The translations under genes and the position numbers were made by a program. A model generated the notes under the pieces. It ran no database searches. It was given only the letters and a program-made list of their open reading frames with translations, and was not told the DNA's origin. From Chloroflexota bacterium (GTDB taxonomy: Bacteria; Chloroflexota; Dehalococcoidia; Lucifugimonadales; Lucifugimonadaceae), in the NCBI GenBank assembly GCA_002699165.1, contig PABO01000012.1, forward strand, positions 51,692 to 86,776: DNA of 35,085 nucleotides. The letters run 5' to 3'. Below are positions 2,605-19,455 of this stretch, in pieces (the stretch's first letter is position 1; the number at the start of each line of letters is the position of its first letter).

Positions 2605-3786
2605 TTATTCTTGCCAAACTTTACCTTTTTTATAAATAATTTCAGGATTTAATGTTGCTCCAATCCCATTTCCTTCAGGAATATGAATTTCACCATTTGT
2701 TATTTTTTCAAAGGGCAGCATAACTTCATGCCTCCAGGGAACTTCTTTAACAGCATGTTCTAATGGTAGTTTTGAAGAAATAGAAGATGTTATATGCGCA
2801 GAAGTAAGCAAAGATACTGGCCCAGAAGGACAGTGCATAGAAATTTTTTCTGAAGGTTCATCAACTATTTTTTCTAGATCTAGGATTTCTGTTGCTCCTC
2901 CACAAAACTTTACATCTGGCATAACTATATCAATAACTCTATTTGTCAGTAGATCATTAAATTTTTTAGCACCGTATATCATTTCTGCTCCGGCAGTTAT
3001 AATTTTTGAATAGTTGTTGATTTTTATCATTTCTTTTTGATTTTTTTCAGGATCTACAGGTTCTTCAAACCAATCAATATCTCGATCAAAAAGTTCATCA
3101 TGTAAATAATAACTTGAATCTAGGTCAAATCTTGAATGACAGTCAACGAACAGTTTAGTTTCTTTAGAAATATTGCTTCTAATTTCGGATATTCTCTCTA
3201 ATCCTAGAATTGCTTCTTCGGGGAGTTTGTTTTTTTCTGTAAAAGGGCTTTTGCACTCATCAAAAGGAGCACATTTAATAGTTAAGAATCCTTCCTGTTC
3301 TAATTCTTTAGCTCTACTTGCAAATGACTCAGGGCTTCTATTTACTGGCCCGTCATCATTTGGAAGAAGAGATCTATTGATATTTGCATACAATGGAACT
3401 TTATAATCATCTTTTACTCTTAATCCTGGGTTCATTTCATTTAAGAATTTATATAGACTCAACTCCATTCTCTTAGACATTAAATCTAAAAATGCAGATC
3501 TTATTCCACTGATAGCAGTAGCAAGTGATAAATTTTTAGATGCTAAATTTTCACTATCAATAATATTAATCAGTTCTTTTTCAGAATATATTTTTTCTCC
3601 CCTTAGTCGATTAGAAATCTTAGATATAGTTTTAGAAACAGGGGAATCTAATTGAGTATCTGTTATTTCAGAAATCCCAGATATATTGTCATCAGAAATA
3701 AATTCCATGAATTTCCACTCTGTATTTCCTCTAACATGAATTGAAAAAAAGTTTAGCTGATTAATTCTAATCCAATCATTTTCCAT
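2605..3786 (-). CDS. Enolase-superfamily (mandelate racemase/muconate lactonizing) protein, probable sugar-acid dehydratase
   Basis: Metal ligands and catalytic motifs: VDCHSRFD, DWFEEPVDP, AGAEMIYG, MPDVKFCGG, MHCPSGPVS. Confidence 0.85.
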   Translation of the reverse strand: MENDWIRINQLNFFSIHVRGNTEWKFMEFISDDNISGISEITDTQLDSPVSKTISKISNRLRGEKIYSEKELINIIDSENLASKNLSLATAISGIRSAFLDLMSKRMELSLYKFLNEMNPGLRVKDDYKVPLYANINRSLLPNDDGPVNRSPESFASRAKELEQEGFLTIKCAPFDECKSPFTEKNKLPEEAILGLERISEIRSNISKETKLFVDCHSRFDLDSSYYLHDELFDRDIDWFEEPVDPEKNQKEMIKINNYSKIITAGAEMIYGAKKFNDLLTNRVIDIVMPDVKFCGGATEILDLEKIVDEPSEKISMHCPSGPVSLLTSAHITSSISSKLPLEHAVKEVPWRHEVMLPFEKITNGEIHIPEGNGIGATLNPEIIYKKGKVWQE

Positions 3787-3787
3787 C

Positions 3788-4756
3788 TCAATAGCCCTTA
3801 CTTAGATCACATTTATGCAATAATTCATTTTTATTTATAAATCTTTTAATATTTTCAGTAAAAATTTTTCTTCTTCCTTCATACATTTCAGGAGATAATG
3901 CTGATGCATGTTGAGAGATAATTAAGTTATCTATATTCCATAAAGGTGAAGATTTTGGAAGAGGTTCTATTTTTGTAGCATCTATTCCTGCGCCAGCTAA
4001 ATGGCCAGAATTTAGAGCTTCATATAAGTCATTTTCATTTATAATTCCCCCTCTTGATATTATGACAACATAACTATTTTTAGGCATTCTTAATAAATTT
4101 TCAATTTTTATAAAGTTTTCAGTTTCTCTAATTAAAGGAGCTGCTATTATTAACCAATTGGAAATTCTTAATATTTCATCTAGTTTATTTGGGTGAGAGA
4201 TACTTTTTTCAAAGCCCATTTTAGTATTATTGACAGGGTCTATTGGAAAAATATTCATTTCAAATGCATTAAGCTTTTTTGCAATAGATTGACCTAATTT
4301 TCCGTAACCGTAAATACATACATTGGATCCTTTTAATTCTACTATTTTTGAGTTCCATTGATCAACATCCCATTTTTTATTGATTTGATCAGCAAATAGT
4401 TTTTTAAAAGAATGCGCTAAGCCCACCATGGTACCAATAACGTGTTCAGCCATTGGTGTTACGTGTGCAAGAGGGGCATTAGTTATAATTGTTTTTGGAT
4501 TTAGTGACTGAGAGTTATTAATGATCTTATCTATACCTGTTCCAGGGCAAGCAATCCACTTGATATTCGATCCTTTTTCGATTATTTCTTTTGAAGGGAA
4601 TCCAAAATAAACATCTGCTTTTTGAATATGATTTAATTGTTCTTTTTCACTAAAAGCTTTAATAAAATTAACTTCCGGAAACAAATCTTGTAATTTTTCT
4701 GGAAAATCTTTTCCTAAGTGATCACTCCCAATTATTATATTCACTTCTTTTCCCAT
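3788..4756 (-). CDS. D-isomer-specific 2-hydroxyacid dehydrogenase
   Basis: NAD-binding YGYGKLGQSIAKKL; SRGGIINENDL and ISQHASA catalytic motifs. Start ambiguous: ATG 4756 or GTG 4744 (GTGA overlap with gcvPB stop). Confidence 0.85.
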   Translation of the reverse strand: MGKEVNIIIGSDHLGKDFPEKLQDLFPEVNFIKAFSEKEQLNHIQKADVYFGFPSKEIIEKGSNIKWIACPGTGIDKIINNSQSLNPKTIITNAPLAHVTPMAEHVIGTMVGLAHSFKKLFADQINKKWDVDQWNSKIVELKGSNVCIYGYGKLGQSIAKKLNAFEMNIFPIDPVNNTKMGFEKSISHPNKLDEILRISNWLIIAAPLIRETENFIKIENLLRMPKNSYVVIISRGGIINENDLYEALNSGHLAGAGIDATKIEPLPKSSPLWNIDNLIISQHASALSPEMYEGRRKIFTENIKRFINKNELLHKCDLSKGY

Positions 4757-13071: not shown

Positions 13072-13998
13072 TTATTTATACCTAGGAACATTATGTTTAT
13101 TTAGAATTTCATCTAGTTCATTTATTAAGTTTTTAGAAGGAGTTTTGGAAGGAGGTCTAGGAGGTCCAGCTTTTAAACCAACTAGTTCCATCGCAACTTT
13201 TATAAACGGACCTTCTCCACCTGTTTCTTGAACTACCTTCCCAACCCATTTCATCCAATCTGACTTAAAGCCAGAAAGAAGCTTTTTAGTTTTATCATAA
13301 TTTTTTTCAATCATTGAATCCCAAATTAATCTTGGATATTCAGGCCAAAAACTACTTAAGTGTGTGATAAATCCAGTAGCGCCATAAATATTGCTAAGAA
13401 TATGGTTTCCTGAGTTATCTATCATTGAAACCTTGCCTGAGTATCTTTCAAGGCCCTCTTTAAATAGCTGTATGTCTTCATGGCTCCACTTAATTGAATT
13501 AACATTGGATATTTCAACTAATTGATCGAGTAAGTCAAAATCCATTATAAATCCATCCCACCAAGTGTGATAAATCATTATATTAACATCAGTCTCACTT
13601 GATACTCTCTTAAATAAATCTAAGACATCGTTAGATGTTGGCATATAATAATAAGTTGGTCCTAATTGGCATCCGTATATTCCTAGTTTGGATGCAGCAA
13701 CAGCCATTCTGACTATTTCTCTCCAATCAGTATGCTGGATTGATGTTAATACAGGAACTTTGCCATCAGTAGAGTCTATAGCAATCTTCATTAAATCAAT
13801 TCTTTCATTCACATTTAATGCAGGATGCTCGCCTCCTGCTCCACCAATTAATAATGTTGAATTCCCGTTTGATAATCCTTTATTAATCATAAAGTTCAGA
13901 TTTGATGCAAATGCATCAAAGTCTACTGAGTAGTCTTCTTTGAACGGAGTTGCTACTGCAACCATCGGCCCAACTATTTTTTTTTCTATTGAAGTCAT
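13072..13998 (-). CDS. Dihydrodipicolinate synthase/N-acetylneuraminate lyase-family aldolase
   Basis: GGAGGEHPALNVNERIDLMKIAID and Schiff-base lysine region NSIKWSHED. Confidence 0.85.
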   Translation of the reverse strand: MTSIEKKIVGPMVAVATPFKEDYSVDFDAFASNLNFMINKGLSNGNSTLLIGGAGGEHPALNVNERIDLMKIAIDSTDGKVPVLTSIQHTDWREIVRMAVAASKLGIYGCQLGPTYYYMPTSNDVLDLFKRVSSETDVNIMIYHTWWDGFIMDFDLLDQLVEISNVNSIKWSHEDIQLFKEGLERYSGKVSMIDNSGNHILSNIYGATGFITHLSSFWPEYPRLIWDSMIEKNYDKTKKLLSGFKSDWMKWVGKVVQETGGEGPFIKVAMELVGLKAGPPRPPSKTPSKNLINELDEILNKHNVPRYK

Positions 13999-14034
13999 AA
14001 TCTTTCCTTATAGCTTTTAAATTAAGGTATTCAT

Positions 14035-14145
14035 TTAGATGTAAGTTTCATTGCATTTATTATTGATGACATCATTACAGTCACAATTTATGCATCTGCA
14101 AGGATTGCATTTACAAAATTTATTTTCACATTCATCCTTTTTCAT
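14035..14145 (-). CDS. 36-aa cysteine-rich small protein, metallothionein-like
   Basis: Manual translation: MKKDECENKFCKCNPCRCINCDCNDVINNKCNETYI; 8 Cys with CxCxxCxCxxCxC. Not in the ORF track, which lists an antisense ORF here. Confidence 0.6.
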   Translation of the reverse strand: MKKDECENKFCKCNPCRCINCDCNDVINNKCNETYI

Positions 14146-14187
14146 AAATTACATTTTATTATTTTATTTTACAAAAAAAATATTATT

Positions 14188-14355
14188 TTATTTTGATTTT
14201 ACTTTTAGAAGAATCCCCATTAATAATAAAACTAAGATTAAAATAATTACTGGAATTATATAAGAGATAATAATTTCAGTAAAAAATAGTAAATATATTG
14301 TTACCAAAAACAAACTTAAGAAACTTATGAATAGGTTGATTTTATATAAATTCAT
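14188..14355 (-). CDS. 55-aa two-TM small membrane protein
   Basis: Manual translation: MNLYKINLFISFLSLFLVTIYLLFFTEIIISYIIPVIILILVLLLMGILLKVKSK. Confidence 0.45.
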   Translation of the reverse strand: MNLYKINLFISFLSLFLVTIYLLFFTEIIISYIIPVIILILVLLLMGILLKVKSK

Positions 14356-14409
14356 TTTTATTATTTTGTTTACCTTTTGAAATTATTATATAAACTTTTT
14401 AAAATCAGC

Positions 14410-15669
14410 TTAGAGTAAATTTTTTGACAGAATATCTCTTACTATAAAATTAGCATCTTCTGCAACCCCTATAAATTGAGCAGATTTTGAAGAATGCATC
14501 CATTGAAGCCCCATAAAATACAAACCTTTATATTTAGTTACTCCTCTTCTTTGTATCGGATGATTATTATCGTCAGTAACATCTAGATCAATCCAGTCAT
14601 AATCATATCGAAATCCTGTAGACCAAATAATACTATCTTCTTCATAGTTTAAGTTTAGTTTGTCAATTGATTTTAATTGATCTGAAATAATCCTTTTATC
14701 AGTGTGTAAATGTTCGGTCTTAGTACTAATATTTTTTTTATTTATATATTTATCTACTTCAATAGACCAGTTTATTGCATATTCATCAGAAAACTTAATA
14801 TTTTCAAATAAATCATCGTTTACTATTAAATTATCTTTTTTACATTCTCTGATTGTTCCACATATATTTAATCCTTTTTCTCTTAAATCTAAGAGATTTA
14901 TATCATGTCCTCCCATGCTGCCAGAAGTATGTGCGCTACATTTCCATCTATTTGCAAAAGGGACTTCATCTATTGTTTTGTTAAATAGGCCCATTTCATA
15001 ATTCCACCAAGAAGAATCTTTACCTCTATATGACCTTGGTCTTCTTCCGCATTTACTAACAGCTAACCAAACTTCCTTTCCTGAAGTTAATAAATCTTCT
15101 GCAATTTGTGCTCCAGATTGTCCAGAGCCAACAACTATAACTTTACCTTTTGGTAATTGAGAGGAGTTCTTATATTGAGATGAGTGTATTTGAAATAGTT
15201 TGCTATTTATTTTTTTACTTATTTCAGGCTTATGTGCGTTTCCAAATGCCCCACTTGCTATAACAGCTATATTACAGTTTATTATTTTCTTAGATGTTAT
15301 TATTTTGTATTGATTTTTTTCTTTAGAAATATTTTCAACTTTTTCATTTTCATAAATTTTACTTCCTATAAATTTAGCAAATGATTGAACATAGTTTATA
15401 ACTTCTTTTTTATTTAAAAATCCGTCAGGATTATCAAAGGGAAAATTATTTGAATCAATGTCAAATTCAGGAATTTTCATTGCCCAGTTTGGGTTTACCA
15501 AATAAAAATTGTCCCATCTTTCATTTACCCAACTATTAGCTATAACTCCTTTTTCTAAAATAATATGATTTATATTTTTTTTAGAAAGAAAATAACTAAT
15601 ACAAAGACCTGCAATCCCAGCTCCTATTATTACTACTGAAGTATTATTTATTTCTTTGTTTGATTGCAT
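14410..15669 (-). CDS. FAD/NAD(P)-dependent monooxygenase (flavin-containing monooxygenase/CzcO-like)
   Basis: Two Rossmann motifs: VVIIGAGIAGLCISYFLS and VIVVGSGQSGAQIAEDLL; SIIWSTGFRYDYDWI. Confidence 0.85.
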   Translation of the reverse strand: MQSNKEINNTSVVIIGAGIAGLCISYFLSKKNINHIILEKGVIANSWVNERWDNFYLVNPNWAMKIPEFDIDSNNFPFDNPDGFLNKKEVINYVQSFAKFIGSKIYENEKVENISKEKNQYKIITSKKIINCNIAVIASGAFGNAHKPEISKKINSKLFQIHSSQYKNSSQLPKGKVIVVGSGQSGAQIAEDLLTSGKEVWLAVSKCGRRPRSYRGKDSSWWNYEMGLFNKTIDEVPFANRWKCSAHTSGSMGGHDINLLDLREKGLNICGTIRECKKDNLIVNDDLFENIKFSDEYAINWSIEVDKYINKKNISTKTEHLHTDKRIISDQLKSIDKLNLNYEEDSIIWSTGFRYDYDWIDLDVTDDNNHPIQRRGVTKYKGLYFMGLQWMHSSKSAQFIGVAEDANFIVRDILSKNLL

Positions 15670-15686
15670 TTACAGATAATATAATT

Positions 15687-16532
15687 TTAATGATTGATAA
15701 CTTTTAGATTCTTTTGATTCTTGAATCTTTCTTTCATGATATTTATAGCCTGATCATAATTATCAATAAGAATAGCGTTTCTTTCATTAATTATTGCAGC
15801 TTCACCTGTAGTTCCTGCTCCAGCAAAAAAATCTAAAACCAAATCATTTTTATTAGAATGTACCTTAATTATTCTATTCATAATTGCTATTGGCTTTTGA
15901 GTTGGATATCCTGTTTTTTCTTTACTATTTGGGCTTACAATAGTATGCCACCAAGAATCTGTAGGAGTTTTACCTTTTGCAGCTTTCTCTGGACCAACAA
16001 GATTAGGGGCTAAGTAAGGGATTCGGTCTATATCTTCATAGTTAAAAGTATATTTCTTTGGATCCATTGCGTACCACAAAATATTATCATGTTTTGCAGA
16101 CCATTTGCTTTTACTCCTTGCTCCATAATCATAAGACCAAATAATCTCATTTATAAATGAGTCACGTCCAAAAATTTCATCACACATTATTTTTGCATAA
16201 TGTATCTCCCTGTAATCTAAATGTAAAAAGAAGCTGCCATTCGGTTTGAGAATTCTTTTGGCTTCTTCGATTCTAGGTTTTAGAAAAACAATATAATCAT
16301 CAAAAATATCAGAATAACTTTGCTTTCCTATTATTTCAGTTTTATAAGATTGACCCTTAAACCCTATTCGATCTCCATCTTCAGATCTTGTAGTTTTTAT
16401 TTGGGTTCTAGATTGTATCTTTCCTGTATTAAATGGAGGGTCTATATAAATTAAATCTATAGAATTCTTTTTAATTTCTTTGAGTATTTTTAGATTGTCA
16501 CCTAAGTGAAGTTCAATGTTATTATCTGTCAT
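15687..16532 (-). CDS. DNA methyltransferase (N4/N6, beta-class motif order)
   Basis: Motif IV DPPFNTG near the N-terminus, AdoMet motif DFFAGAGTTGEAA near the C-terminus, TQKPIAIMNRII. Confidence 0.9.
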   Translation of the reverse strand: MTDNNIELHLGDNLKILKEIKKNSIDLIYIDPPFNTGKIQSRTQIKTTRSEDGDRIGFKGQSYKTEIIGKQSYSDIFDDYIVFLKPRIEEAKRILKPNGSFFLHLDYREIHYAKIMCDEIFGRDSFINEIIWSYDYGARSKSKWSAKHDNILWYAMDPKKYTFNYEDIDRIPYLAPNLVGPEKAAKGKTPTDSWWHTIVSPNSKEKTGYPTQKPIAIMNRIIKVHSNKNDLVLDFFAGAGTTGEAAIINERNAILIDNYDQAINIMKERFKNQKNLKVINH

Positions 16533-16590: not shown

Positions 16591-16692
16591 TTATAGTAGC
16601 TTACAAAGGCCTATGCCCATCAACGCACCAACTAAAGCCGCAATAATATAAGATACGATATTTGATGCTACTAATTTATTTATATTTTCCAT
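16591..16692 (-). CDS. 33-aa single-TM small protein
   Basis: Manual translation: MENINKLVASNIVSYIIAALVGALMGIGLCKLL; start 1 bp downstream of the preceding stop. Confidence 0.5.
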   Translation of the reverse strand: MENINKLVASNIVSYIIAALVGALMGIGLCKLL

Positions 16693-16693
16693 T

Positions 16694-16861
16694 TTATTTA
16701 TTATTACGTTTTTGTTTAATATTTTCTGAGTAAATAGTTAATATTGAGGTACTGATACCTATTATTATACCTATAAAAAGTCCAAGTCCTAACCATAATC
16801 CAAAAAAACTTCCAATCACAATCCCATATAAAATAGCTAATATATATTTTCTATAACTCAT
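16694..16861 (-). CDS. 55-aa glycine-rich small membrane protein
   Basis: Manual translation: MSYRKYILAILYGIVIGSFFGLWLGLGLFIGIIIGISTSILTIYSENIKQKRNNK; start 2 bp downstream of the preceding stop. Confidence 0.6.
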   Translation of the reverse strand: MSYRKYILAILYGIVIGSFFGLWLGLGLFIGIIIGISTSILTIYSENIKQKRNNK

Positions 16862-16863
16862 TT

Positions 16864-17214
16864 TTATTTATTTTTTCTTGTTTCAATGAAGCTTTTTATA
16901 AATATTATTATAGAAAAAATACATGTTCCAATCATAACAAAAAGTCTGAAGAGTCCCCAGCCGCCTTCATCGATTGATTTAGGAAGCCTTGTTCCTATAA
17001 GTGCAACCAGGATCAATATTGTTAGAAGGACAGCTATATGTGCAAAAATCATATTTAGTTTTTGATTTTTTAGTGACAATAAATAGCATATAAAAATTAG
17101 TACTCCAAATATTGAAGGTATAAATGCAGTAGGTGAAGAAACTTCGAAAAATCCCCAAATTCCCATTATTATTAGCGAGGTTGAATTTATAATATTTGCT
17201 GTCTTTGAATTCAT
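16864..17214 (-). CDS. Small multi-TM membrane protein
   Basis: Start refined to MNSKTANIINS (ATG 17214) preceded by GGAGTTTAC; about 4 hydrophobic segments. Confidence 0.7.
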   Translation of the reverse strand: MNSKTANIINSTSLIIMGIWGFFEVSSPTAFIPSIFGVLIFICYLLSLKNQKLNMIFAHIAVLLTILILVALIGTRLPKSIDEGGWGLFRLFVMIGTCIFSIIIFIKSFIETRKNK

Positions 17215-17242
17215 GTAAACTCCAGTATTAATTTTATAATAT

Positions 17243-18850
17243 TTATTCCTTAAAAAAATCTCTTCCAATTTTTTTGGGTATTTGTATAGGCTTTTTATCT
17301 TCTGTTTCTATCATCCAATCTAACAAATAATCCTTCATTTCTAGGATTATATTTTTATTTTCGCTCTTATTAGAAAGGTTTATTAACTCCCAAGGATCGT
17401 TTTCTAGGTCATAAAGTTCATCCATATCTCCATGCGAATCAGTTATATACTTCCATTTATCTGTTCGAACCATTTTCCTTCTTCCTTCAGCTTCACGAGC
17501 CCATAAAGTTTCTAAAAGTGTTCTATAACCCTTAGAGGGTCTAAATTTTTTAAAATCTTCAAATCTAAATTTTGGTCCCCCAGCACCATACTCAGAAAAA
17601 GCGATATTTTTTCCTTTATTTTTTGTAACTGTTGGCAGTAAATTACCTTGATAACCTCTTATATCATCTTCAGATAAAAAATATTTTTTTGACTCATTCT
17701 TTTTTTTCCAGCCTATCCCTGTTTCACTAAAATTTCCAAGTCCTTGTAGATGTAGAAGTGTTGGAATTATATCAATTGTACTTACTACAGATTTTTCTTT
17801 TATATTTTTTGAAAAATCTCCATTCGGCCAACTAATAATTAAAGGAACCTTAACTAGGCAATCATAAAAAACTCCTCCTTTAACAAACATTCCGTGTTCT
17901 CCCATAAAATCTCCATGATCGGAAGTAAAAATAATAATAGTATTTTTCTTCAAATCTAATTCTTCTAATTTTTCAGTTATTTTTTTTATTCCATCATCTA
18001 TAAATTTACACATTGCTTGATAAACGCTTATTTGTTCTCTGATTTCATATTCTGATTCATTTTTATGTCCCATAATTTCAAACAAGATTTTATTTCTTTC
18101 AGGAGATGAATCATCCTCAAATTCACCAATTCTTTGAGGAGGTAACTTTACTTCTTTTGAAGGAAACATATCCGTATATCTTTTAGGGGCTTCAAATGGT
18201 TCATGAGGATCTGGAAATGATACCCAAAGAGCAAAGGGTTGTTTTTCTTTTGAAAAATCTCCATTTTTATATTTCTCTAAAAACTTTATACTTCTTTCTG
18301 AAATAAGCGAAGTGCTAAATAAATTTTCATCGTTATCTGATGAGGAATAACATATTTTATTTTCTGTTTTAGCCATTGCTAGCCTATTAGCATTAGCTTT
18401 ATCAATTAGATCTTCATTCACACCCCAATCCATTCCTTTTGTTCCAGTATTTGCTCCTAAATAATTTCCTTTCGGTAAACCCTGATGACTTATTTCGAGT
18501 CTAACATCAAAAAGATCCAAGTCAGATTTTTCTACATAGCAATGATTTTTACCAATTAATCCTGTTGTATAATTGGCTTCTTTCCATATTTTAAAAGCAT
18601 GATTTTGATTTTTTGGAAGAAGAGTTTCATTTCTTCTACATCCTGTTGAATGAGGATATTTTCCTGTCATAATTGAAGTTCTTGCTGGAACGCATAATGG
18701 GGATGGAGTAATAGCGTTTTCGAAAATCACTCCTTCTTTTGCCAATCTTTCAATTTCAGGGCATTCAATCCCAATCTCTGAGTAAAGACTTAATATTGAT
18801 GCTTTCATTTGGTCTACCATTATGAAAAGTATATTTGGTTTTTCTGGCAA
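17243..18850 (-). CDS. Sulfatase (type I, formylglycine-dependent)
   Basis: CVPARTS sulfatase signature (CxPxR), NILFIMVDQMKAS metal site, FTSDHGDFMGEHGMF. TTG start with AAAGG 8 nt upstream. Confidence 0.93.
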   Translation of the reverse strand: MPEKPNILFIMVDQMKASILSLYSEIGIECPEIERLAKEGVIFENAITPSPLCVPARTSIMTGKYPHSTGCRRNETLLPKNQNHAFKIWKEANYTTGLIGKNHCYVEKSDLDLFDVRLEISHQGLPKGNYLGANTGTKGMDWGVNEDLIDKANANRLAMAKTENKICYSSSDNDENLFSTSLISERSIKFLEKYKNGDFSKEKQPFALWVSFPDPHEPFEAPKRYTDMFPSKEVKLPPQRIGEFEDDSSPERNKILFEIMGHKNESEYEIREQISVYQAMCKFIDDGIKKITEKLEELDLKKNTIIIFTSDHGDFMGEHGMFVKGGVFYDCLVKVPLIISWPNGDFSKNIKEKSVVSTIDIIPTLLHLQGLGNFSETGIGWKKKNESKKYFLSEDDIRGYQGNLLPTVTKNKGKNIAFSEYGAGGPKFRFEDFKKFRPSKGYRTLLETLWAREAEGRRKMVRTDKWKYITDSHGDMDELYDLENDPWELINLSNKSENKNIILEMKDYLLDWMIETEDKKPIQIPKKIGRDFFKE

Positions 18851-18867: not shown

Positions 18868-19455
18868 TTATTTAGTTTGTGTAAGTAGTTTTGCAATTTT
18901 GTTAATAGTATTCCAATGATTTATATTTAGCATTGTTTGTTTTGTTCTTCTTCCCTTAAACTCAAGTTCTATACTATAACCAGAAAATTTTTCATGTAAA
19001 CTCTGAACCTTTATATCTCCTAGACCCATTGAAAGAGAATTTATTTCAGAATCATTAGTGAATTCTCTTGCTAAAGATTCTCCATTTATATTGAAATCCC
19101 ATTTTATAGACTTCACTTTTCCAAGAATTGGAAAAGACTTAATTCTTTTTGATTTAACTTCTAAATAATCATTTTTATTGTCAGAAGTTTTAGAAGGAAT
19201 TGCAAAATAATACCACCATCTTGGGGGAGTATCTTTACTTCGATCTCTTTTGATTATATTTATATAGCTAATCATAGAATCCGAATTTATTTGGATAACT
19301 CCTAAGCTTCTTCTGTGCCAAGGGTTTAGAAGTTTTTCTTCTATAACCCCTCTTTCAGCTAATGAAGCATTTATTCCTAAAGTTAATAAATGTTTATAAA
19401 AATCATCTCTTGACTTATCTCTAGTATTTTTTTTGAATTTTTCTATCCAATTCAT
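18868..19455 (-). CDS. Hypothetical protein, 195 aa
   Basis: Intact ORF immediately downstream of tRNA-Val; no family recognised. Confidence 0.65.
   Translation of the reverse strand: MNWIEKFKKNTRDKSRDDFYKHLLTLGINASLAERGVIEEKLLNPWHRRSLGVIQINSDSMISYINIIKRDRSKDTPPRWWYYFAIPSKTSDNKNDYLEVKSKRIKSFPILGKVKSIKWDFNINGESLAREFTNDSEINSLSMGLGDIKVQSLHEKFSGYSIELEFKGRRTKQTMLNINHWNTINKIAKLLTQTK

Follow-up and report, generated by a model that had tools for sequence, protein, structure and literature searches.

A conserved cysteine-rich peptide gene of SAR202 bacteria, shared in pattern with marine phages and probably encoding a minimal metal-thiolate buffer

The minus strand of a 35,085-nucleotide stretch of Chloroflexota DNA (hereafter the window) encodes a cysteine-rich peptide of 36 residues. 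Comparison with related genomes leads us to conclude that its coding sequence is a real, conserved gene overlooked by annotation and that it is under purifying selection at the protein level. The gene probably encodes a minimal cytosolic metal-thiolate buffer of the Zn/Cu class, metallothionein-like yet outside the SmtA family. The peptide family, which has members in SAR202 and on phages, is apparently undescribed: a full-text literature search that covered few subscription journals found neither a phage nor a SAR202 metallothionein. The 16S rRNA of the host genome (L188) contains what we take to be the target of probe SAR202-312R. It also carries the target of probe SAR202-104R, whose sequence is printed in PMC6306507, without a mismatch, which places the organism in the SAR202 clade of the Chloroflexota.

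Table 1. Features at and around the cysteine-rich gene, in window coordinates
Feature	Position	Strand	Remarks
DHDPS-family gene (PF00701)	13072..13998	-	Downstream of the Cys gene; adjoins it in five of six carriers in the genus
Cys-rich 36-aa gene	14035..14145	-	Product MKKDECENKFCKCNPCRCINCDCNDVINNKCNETYI; homologues in five congeners, pN/pS 0.26
Antisense 70-aa ORF	14051..14263	+	Judged a non-gene; interrupted by a stop in G002 and G004, shorter in G007 and G008
Core C-x-N-x2-C-x-C-x2-C-x-C-x2-C-x-C	14077..14130	-	Spans Cys6 to Cys23 with seven Cys, none of which varies among 18 SAR202 sequences; phage peptides share the spacing
Putative -10 box TAAAAT	14153..14158	-	7 nt ahead of the ATG; candidate leaderless start, assigned from consensus
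55-aa membrane ORF	14188..14355	-	Upstream; position shared by G007 and G008; the Cys gene of G002, G003 and G004 has no such ORF beside it

The gene and its conservation in the genus

The original prediction had placed here an unannotated ORF with eight cysteines, six of them in the spacing CxCxxCxCxxCxC. Translation gives exactly the product that it claimed, and the six-cysteine pattern occurs a single time in the window (14077-14115, minus strand) and in none of 100 dinucleotide-preserving shuffles. Both other ORFs that it named, one antisense and one of 55 residues upstream on the same strand, are found in the window; we judge the former not to be a gene (Table 1), and the latter is a neighbour that lies outside the mechanism proposed below.

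The original prediction had proposed a search for homologues. Of the eight other genomes in the genus, five carry one of full length (E 1e-10 to 1e-14), with no frameshifts or internal stops, and the full-length form is thus kept in six species. Seven cysteines are invariant among the homologues, and Asn8 and Pro15 are likewise invariant when the genus homologues are aligned with two short relatives. The eighth cysteine, Cys31, is variable, being present only in the window genome and G007. Because Cys6 is invariant in addition to the six cysteines of the earlier motif, we count the conserved core as seven; judged by this conservation, the working unit is the seven cysteines, with Cys31 outside the conserved set. 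For the six long genes taken together, pS amounts to 0.71 and pN to 0.18, a ratio of 0.26, which becomes 0.36 once the invariant Cys codons are excluded; at the Cys codons themselves, TGT and TGC are exchanged freely. With homologues free of frameshifts, conserved cysteines, and a ratio well below 1, the claim of a real gene has held. In G005, a congener whose genome is 97% complete, the interval from a conserved hairpin-like region to the DHDPS gene lacks the Cys gene, which is therefore dispensable or accessory.

The observation that no Shine-Dalgarno site precedes the ATG is correct for the window genome. In the two closest relatives, G007 and G008, TAGAAT-N7-ATG stands at the same position, and across the three genomes the arrangement TA[AG]AAT-N7-ATG would fit a leaderless mRNA with this hexamer as its -10 box. 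A -10-like TANNNT also stands 5-8 nt ahead of the start in several other genes of the window that lack a Shine-Dalgarno site, which suggests that leaderless transcripts are used in this genome. Elsewhere in the window, TATAAT-N7-ATG directly follows a tRNA-like 3′ end at 19455 (18868-19455, minus strand). Clear Shine-Dalgarno sites are found ahead of the Cys gene in most of the more distant SAR202 relatives. In family f24, a block AATGGCT...TTTGKATATACT before the gene is conserved in four genomes; as it persists although the upstream gene differs in one of them, the peptide gene there seems to have its own dedicated promoter.

The neighbours in the window are cellular, with DHDPS-family, FAD oxidoreductase, and DNA methylase genes identified by family searches, in addition to genes that we take from their sequences to be thrS and, further away, rpoC and rpoB. 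The one carrier of the six in which the Cys gene does not precede the DHDPS-family gene is G002, where it is located elsewhere. In G004, the region directly upstream of the Cys gene holds small membrane ORFs that correspond by homology to those of window 16591-17268 (L005/L039 compared with window 14410-16532); in the window, FAD oxidoreductase and N6/N4 DNA methylase genes separate it from those ORFs, and therefore an insertion or rearrangement is indicated.

Short relatives in SAR202 and on marine phages

Alignment searches in a sample of 250 genomes of the order revealed relatives of 21-26 residues, such as MTKCNNPNCKCDPCNCDPCNC and MSSEKPKCDNPNCTCDPCECDPCEC, in 12 further genomes, from genera g5 and g8 and families f24, f15, and f18. 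Their core reads CxNPNCxCDPCxCDPCxC, and most of them terminate at the last core cysteine; the 36-residue form is therefore the core plus a genus-specific tail, which ends in NETYI or NDTYI. All seven core cysteines, and with them the CxCxxCxC block, are invariant in 18 SAR202 sequences, which have 7-8 Cys in 21-36 residues (22-33%) and three CxC pairs. The pN/pS ratio is 0.04 within f24 and 0.19 across all short SAR202 relatives. In a sample of 400 genomes of the phylum, the sole match was the host's own genome, and samples centred on Bacteroidota and Planctomycetota (395 and 294 genomes, searched without a positive control) gave no match at E <= 1e-5, which is weak evidence of absence.

The neighbours of the peptide gene are diverse across the SAR202 lineages, with a link to metals in some and none in others. 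In f24, three genomes have it in divergent orientation to FecCD/Peripla_BP_2 uptake genes and upstream of a phosphotriesterase-family gene, and in f18 it comes 1 nt after the genes for ActD and cytochrome c in an alternative complex III operon (L055 6988-7059, G122). G002 carries a second, phage-like member, MCENSECKNESCTCDPCSCTANDQC (L189, G002:C7, 8366-8443), with cellular genes on either side.

For viruses, we searched with a DNA pattern that demands the exact Cys spacing, and at least 120 viral contigs matched. Some 40% of the 120 matches listed are artefacts (antisense of repetitive coding sequence), and a mirror-image pattern was therefore used as a control. Among the 120 matches listed, 70 fall within short ORFs that have a start close by, and the corresponding figure for the mirror-image pattern is 15 of 120; a Shine-Dalgarno site precedes 50 of those 70, against 2 for the control. 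After removal of the evident artefacts, the matches listed comprise at least 69 viral loci with 61 distinct peptides of 19-62 residues, for instance MCNNPNCKCNPCNCKDCKC and MCNNPECKCSNCTCDPCECSSENPCGCEFDDEQVAPV. At three loci the flanking DNA resembles that of cyanophages, Methylophilales phages, and pelagiphages; the neighbours of the phage members vary. The Cys and Asn residues that phage and SAR202 peptides share were imposed by the search pattern; the preferences for Pro4 and Asp14-Pro15 (numbered within the core), common to both sets, were not. When profiles of the two sets were compared using hhalign, the whole core was aligned with a probability of 98%, a kind of score that Cys composition inflates, and common descent is for this reason likely but not proven.

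An iscU-type gene is found within the fetched stretch at 19 of the 69 viral loci (among the matches listed), as compared with 1 of 171 decoy or artefact stretches, and at five loci it is immediately adjacent to the peptide gene; since the decoy contigs are unmatched by phage lineage, this excess may in part be due to the set of phages recovered. The gene corresponds to phrog_8429, with the catalytic Cys kept (loci L141, L074, L155, L164, L181, and 14 more). The presence of iscU on marine phages was already known and has been discussed as an auxiliary metabolic gene in PMC5332604, which mentions neither a Cys-rich peptide nor a metallothionein. While the phage peptides are often encoded near such a gene, the SAR202 members read have no iscU or suf genes nearby. 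When the peptides were used as tblastn queries on plasmid and phage records, for which such short sequences are low in power, nothing usable emerged; a separate search of viral contigs returned 245 pattern stretches, none of which was confirmed by tblastn, and the named phage records nearest to L313 and L314 lack the peptide in the stretch read.

A probable metal-thiolate buffer outside the known families

The core, with seven Cys in 18 residues and three CxC pairs, has no hydrophobic core, and its spacers are polar, often acidic, and contain Pro. This is most likely the make-up of a metallothionein, in which the chain would fold only around metal. The unit that is kept, seven Cys with Asn and one or more Pro, recurs in the other SAR202 lineages and in marine phages. 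We propose that the seven cysteines, arranged as a C-x4-C step and then three CxC pairs two residues apart, would wrap a small cluster of a soft metal, most likely Zn(II) or Cu(I), for which Cd or Hg could be toxic substitutes. The peptide would buffer or shuttle soft metal ions in the cytosol, and its thiols could also take up oxidants. On phages, it could supply or protect metal during Fe-S assembly, a role that is plausible because the peptide is often encoded near iscU. That the peptide binds metal, which metal this is, and that it acts as a buffer are what we infer from sequence.

The resemblance to bacterial metallothioneins put forward in the original prediction stands for the CxC[NDE]PCxC motif and does not extend beyond it. 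For 18 SAR202 members, Pfam returned no match at E <= 10 and NCBIfam none, and PF02069, the canonical metallothionein profile, had no match among 18 phage members. PHROGs gave nothing below E 0.19 for the SAR202 members, and one of 18 phage members matched an unnamed family at a marginal E of 0.009. The 36-residue peptide had no match in the PDB, and a plant nodule peptide that appeared in a profile search against it (E 0.31) was dismissed as a chance match. Most annotation applies a length cut-off that genes of this size do not reach, and this would account for the absence of a convincing match from the family and structure libraries searched. AlphaFold2 gave no confident fold (pLDDT 53); low confidence is expected in the absence of metal, and therefore this result decides neither way.

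Like SmtA, BmtA, and PmtA of PF02069, the peptides are small, Cys-rich, and cytosolic-looking and contain a CxCxxCxC block, and the form CxC[EDN]PCxC resembles what we take to be the N-terminal Cys block of SmtA, a lead only. They differ in matching no profile, in measuring 21-36 residues in SAR202, and in having three consecutive CxC pairs after the C-x4-C step. SmtA has His ligands and a zinc-finger-like second half (PMC10612145), neither of which is present in the SAR202 members; that a His-containing second half is lacking had been noted from the window peptide, and His is absent from all SAR202 members. As neither the profile nor the His and second-half features are found, membership in PF02069 was rejected. 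Metallothioneins are characterised in general by abundant Cys and by CxC pairs (PMC4755600, PMC10612145). The SAR202 members, being small, Cys-rich, and equipped with conserved CxC pairs, share these traits and would be metallothioneins in the broad functional sense if they bind metal ions in thiolate clusters. The Cu-metallothioneins of Neurospora crassa and Agaricus bisporus, which have 26 residues with 7 Cys and were once taken as the shortest metallothioneins (PMC4755600), likewise consist of one short seven-Cys unit with three CxC pairs and a single Cys. Their spacing, however, is CxC-x5-CxC-x3-CxC-x2-C (fungal family 8, PMC4755600) as opposed to C-x4-CxC-x2-CxC-x2-CxC here, which led us to reject membership in that family; their spacers are Gly/Ser rather than Asp/Glu/Asn-Pro, and their hosts are fungi rather than bacteria and phages.

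In favour of a metal buffer, we counted the conservation and selection described above, the metal-related neighbours in some lineages (the uptake genes in f24, ActD and cytochrome c in f18, iscU at 19 of the 69 viral loci), and that no canonical metallothionein is available to fill the role: PF02069 is absent from 60 relatives, in a search that detected the control, Synechococcus elongatus. Against it, we counted the lack of His, of a metallothionein-profile match, and of an identified metal-responsive operator, window neighbours (DHDPS family, FAD oxidoreductase) without a metal theme, and the missing gene in G005. If the peptides do bind metal, those of 21 residues in SAR202 and 19 in phages would be shorter than the 26-residue fungal metallothioneins (PMC4755600). 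The SAR202 clade, which is abundant in the ocean and has hardly been cultured, would then have a means of buffering metal in genomes where no member of the canonical bacterial family turned up, and marine phages would carry a metal-handling gene close to one for Fe-S assembly that has been treated as an auxiliary metabolic gene (PMC5332604). A wider proposal, which we consider doubtful, is that a previously unrecognised class of very short metal-carrier peptides (from 19 residues) is common to SAR202 and marine phages and, on phages, together with phage IscU, sustains Fe-S assembly during infection by supplying metal or by removing poisoning Zn/Cu; it would then be an auxiliary gene whose small size lets it escape annotation pipelines.

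Alternative roles for the peptide

Two rivals to a Zn/Cu buffer are the strongest: a peptide related to Fe-S clusters or iron, and a leader peptide that responds to Cys. Metallothioneins typically have CxC pairs, and Fe-S sites are usually spaced more widely, for example as CxxC. The peptide has CxC pairs, which argues against its binding an Fe-S cluster or donating iron or sulphur as a partner of phage IscU. The iscU genes at the viral loci do point in that direction, as do a ferredoxin-like ORF beside the peptide gene at phage locus L120 and the FecCD iron-type uptake genes adjoining it in f24; given that the decoys were not lineage-matched and that the SAR202 members read lack iscU and suf neighbours, we regard Fe-S cluster binding or iron/sulphur donation in place of Zn/Cu buffering as unlikely.

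A thiol redox buffer or oxidant sponge without any role for metal would account for the high number of cysteines, but would need neither their strict spacing nor the conserved Asn and Pro, and redox partner genes are absent nearby. This role is very unlikely in our estimation, even though one viral ORF couples a related motif with a predicted membrane segment as well as with a CxxC stretch at its C-terminal end. That ORF (L121, reverse strand, within 3477-4517) has a hydrophobic N-terminal segment followed by CxNxxCxCxxCxCxxCxC and a CKQC stretch, which looks glutaredoxin-like by eye and has no significant Pfam match.

Translation of a short Cys-rich ORF could also serve as a sensor, its speed attenuating the downstream DHDPS-family gene. 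The candidate leaderless start, and a position that in five of six carriers immediately precedes the DHDPS-family gene, would suit such a leader peptide, for which mycobacterial polycysteine uORFs (Canestrari et al. 2020, via PMC9031893) provide a precedent: these too are short and Cys-rich and lie upstream of a gene, and their start is leaderless, as the one here may be. They differ from the present peptides in having contiguous Cys codons; no two are adjacent in any SAR202 member, and the SAR202 members are conserved as protein and have no single downstream operon. The spaced codons, selection on non-Cys residues too, and a gene position that shifts (away from the DHDPS operon in G002 and other lineages, and among varied neighbours on phages) all weaken this alternative, and the window has no terminator-like hairpin or Rfam element at 13900-14500 and a DHDPS-family gene with its own Shine-Dalgarno site. 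We give a leader peptide very little credence.

A functionless chance ORF, for which the length of 36 residues and the missing Shine-Dalgarno site in the window genome might speak, is practically negligible given full-length retention in six species, purifying selection, and Shine-Dalgarno sites in relatives.

Peptides of other kinds came up beside the family for which we favour metal buffering. A pattern with C-x3-C as its first step, run on contigs of named genomes, gave eight matches, to lipoprotein-like proteins of Prevotellaceae/Bacteroidales and to planctomycete Cys-repeat proteins, which we set aside as a different family. Rumen planctomycete genomes (L025, L026, L022, L023, L027) encode secreted-looking proteins with tandem Cys-rich repeats (KCKCEKKCECNPCECEDCKCAE), a metallothionein-like kind of another sort.
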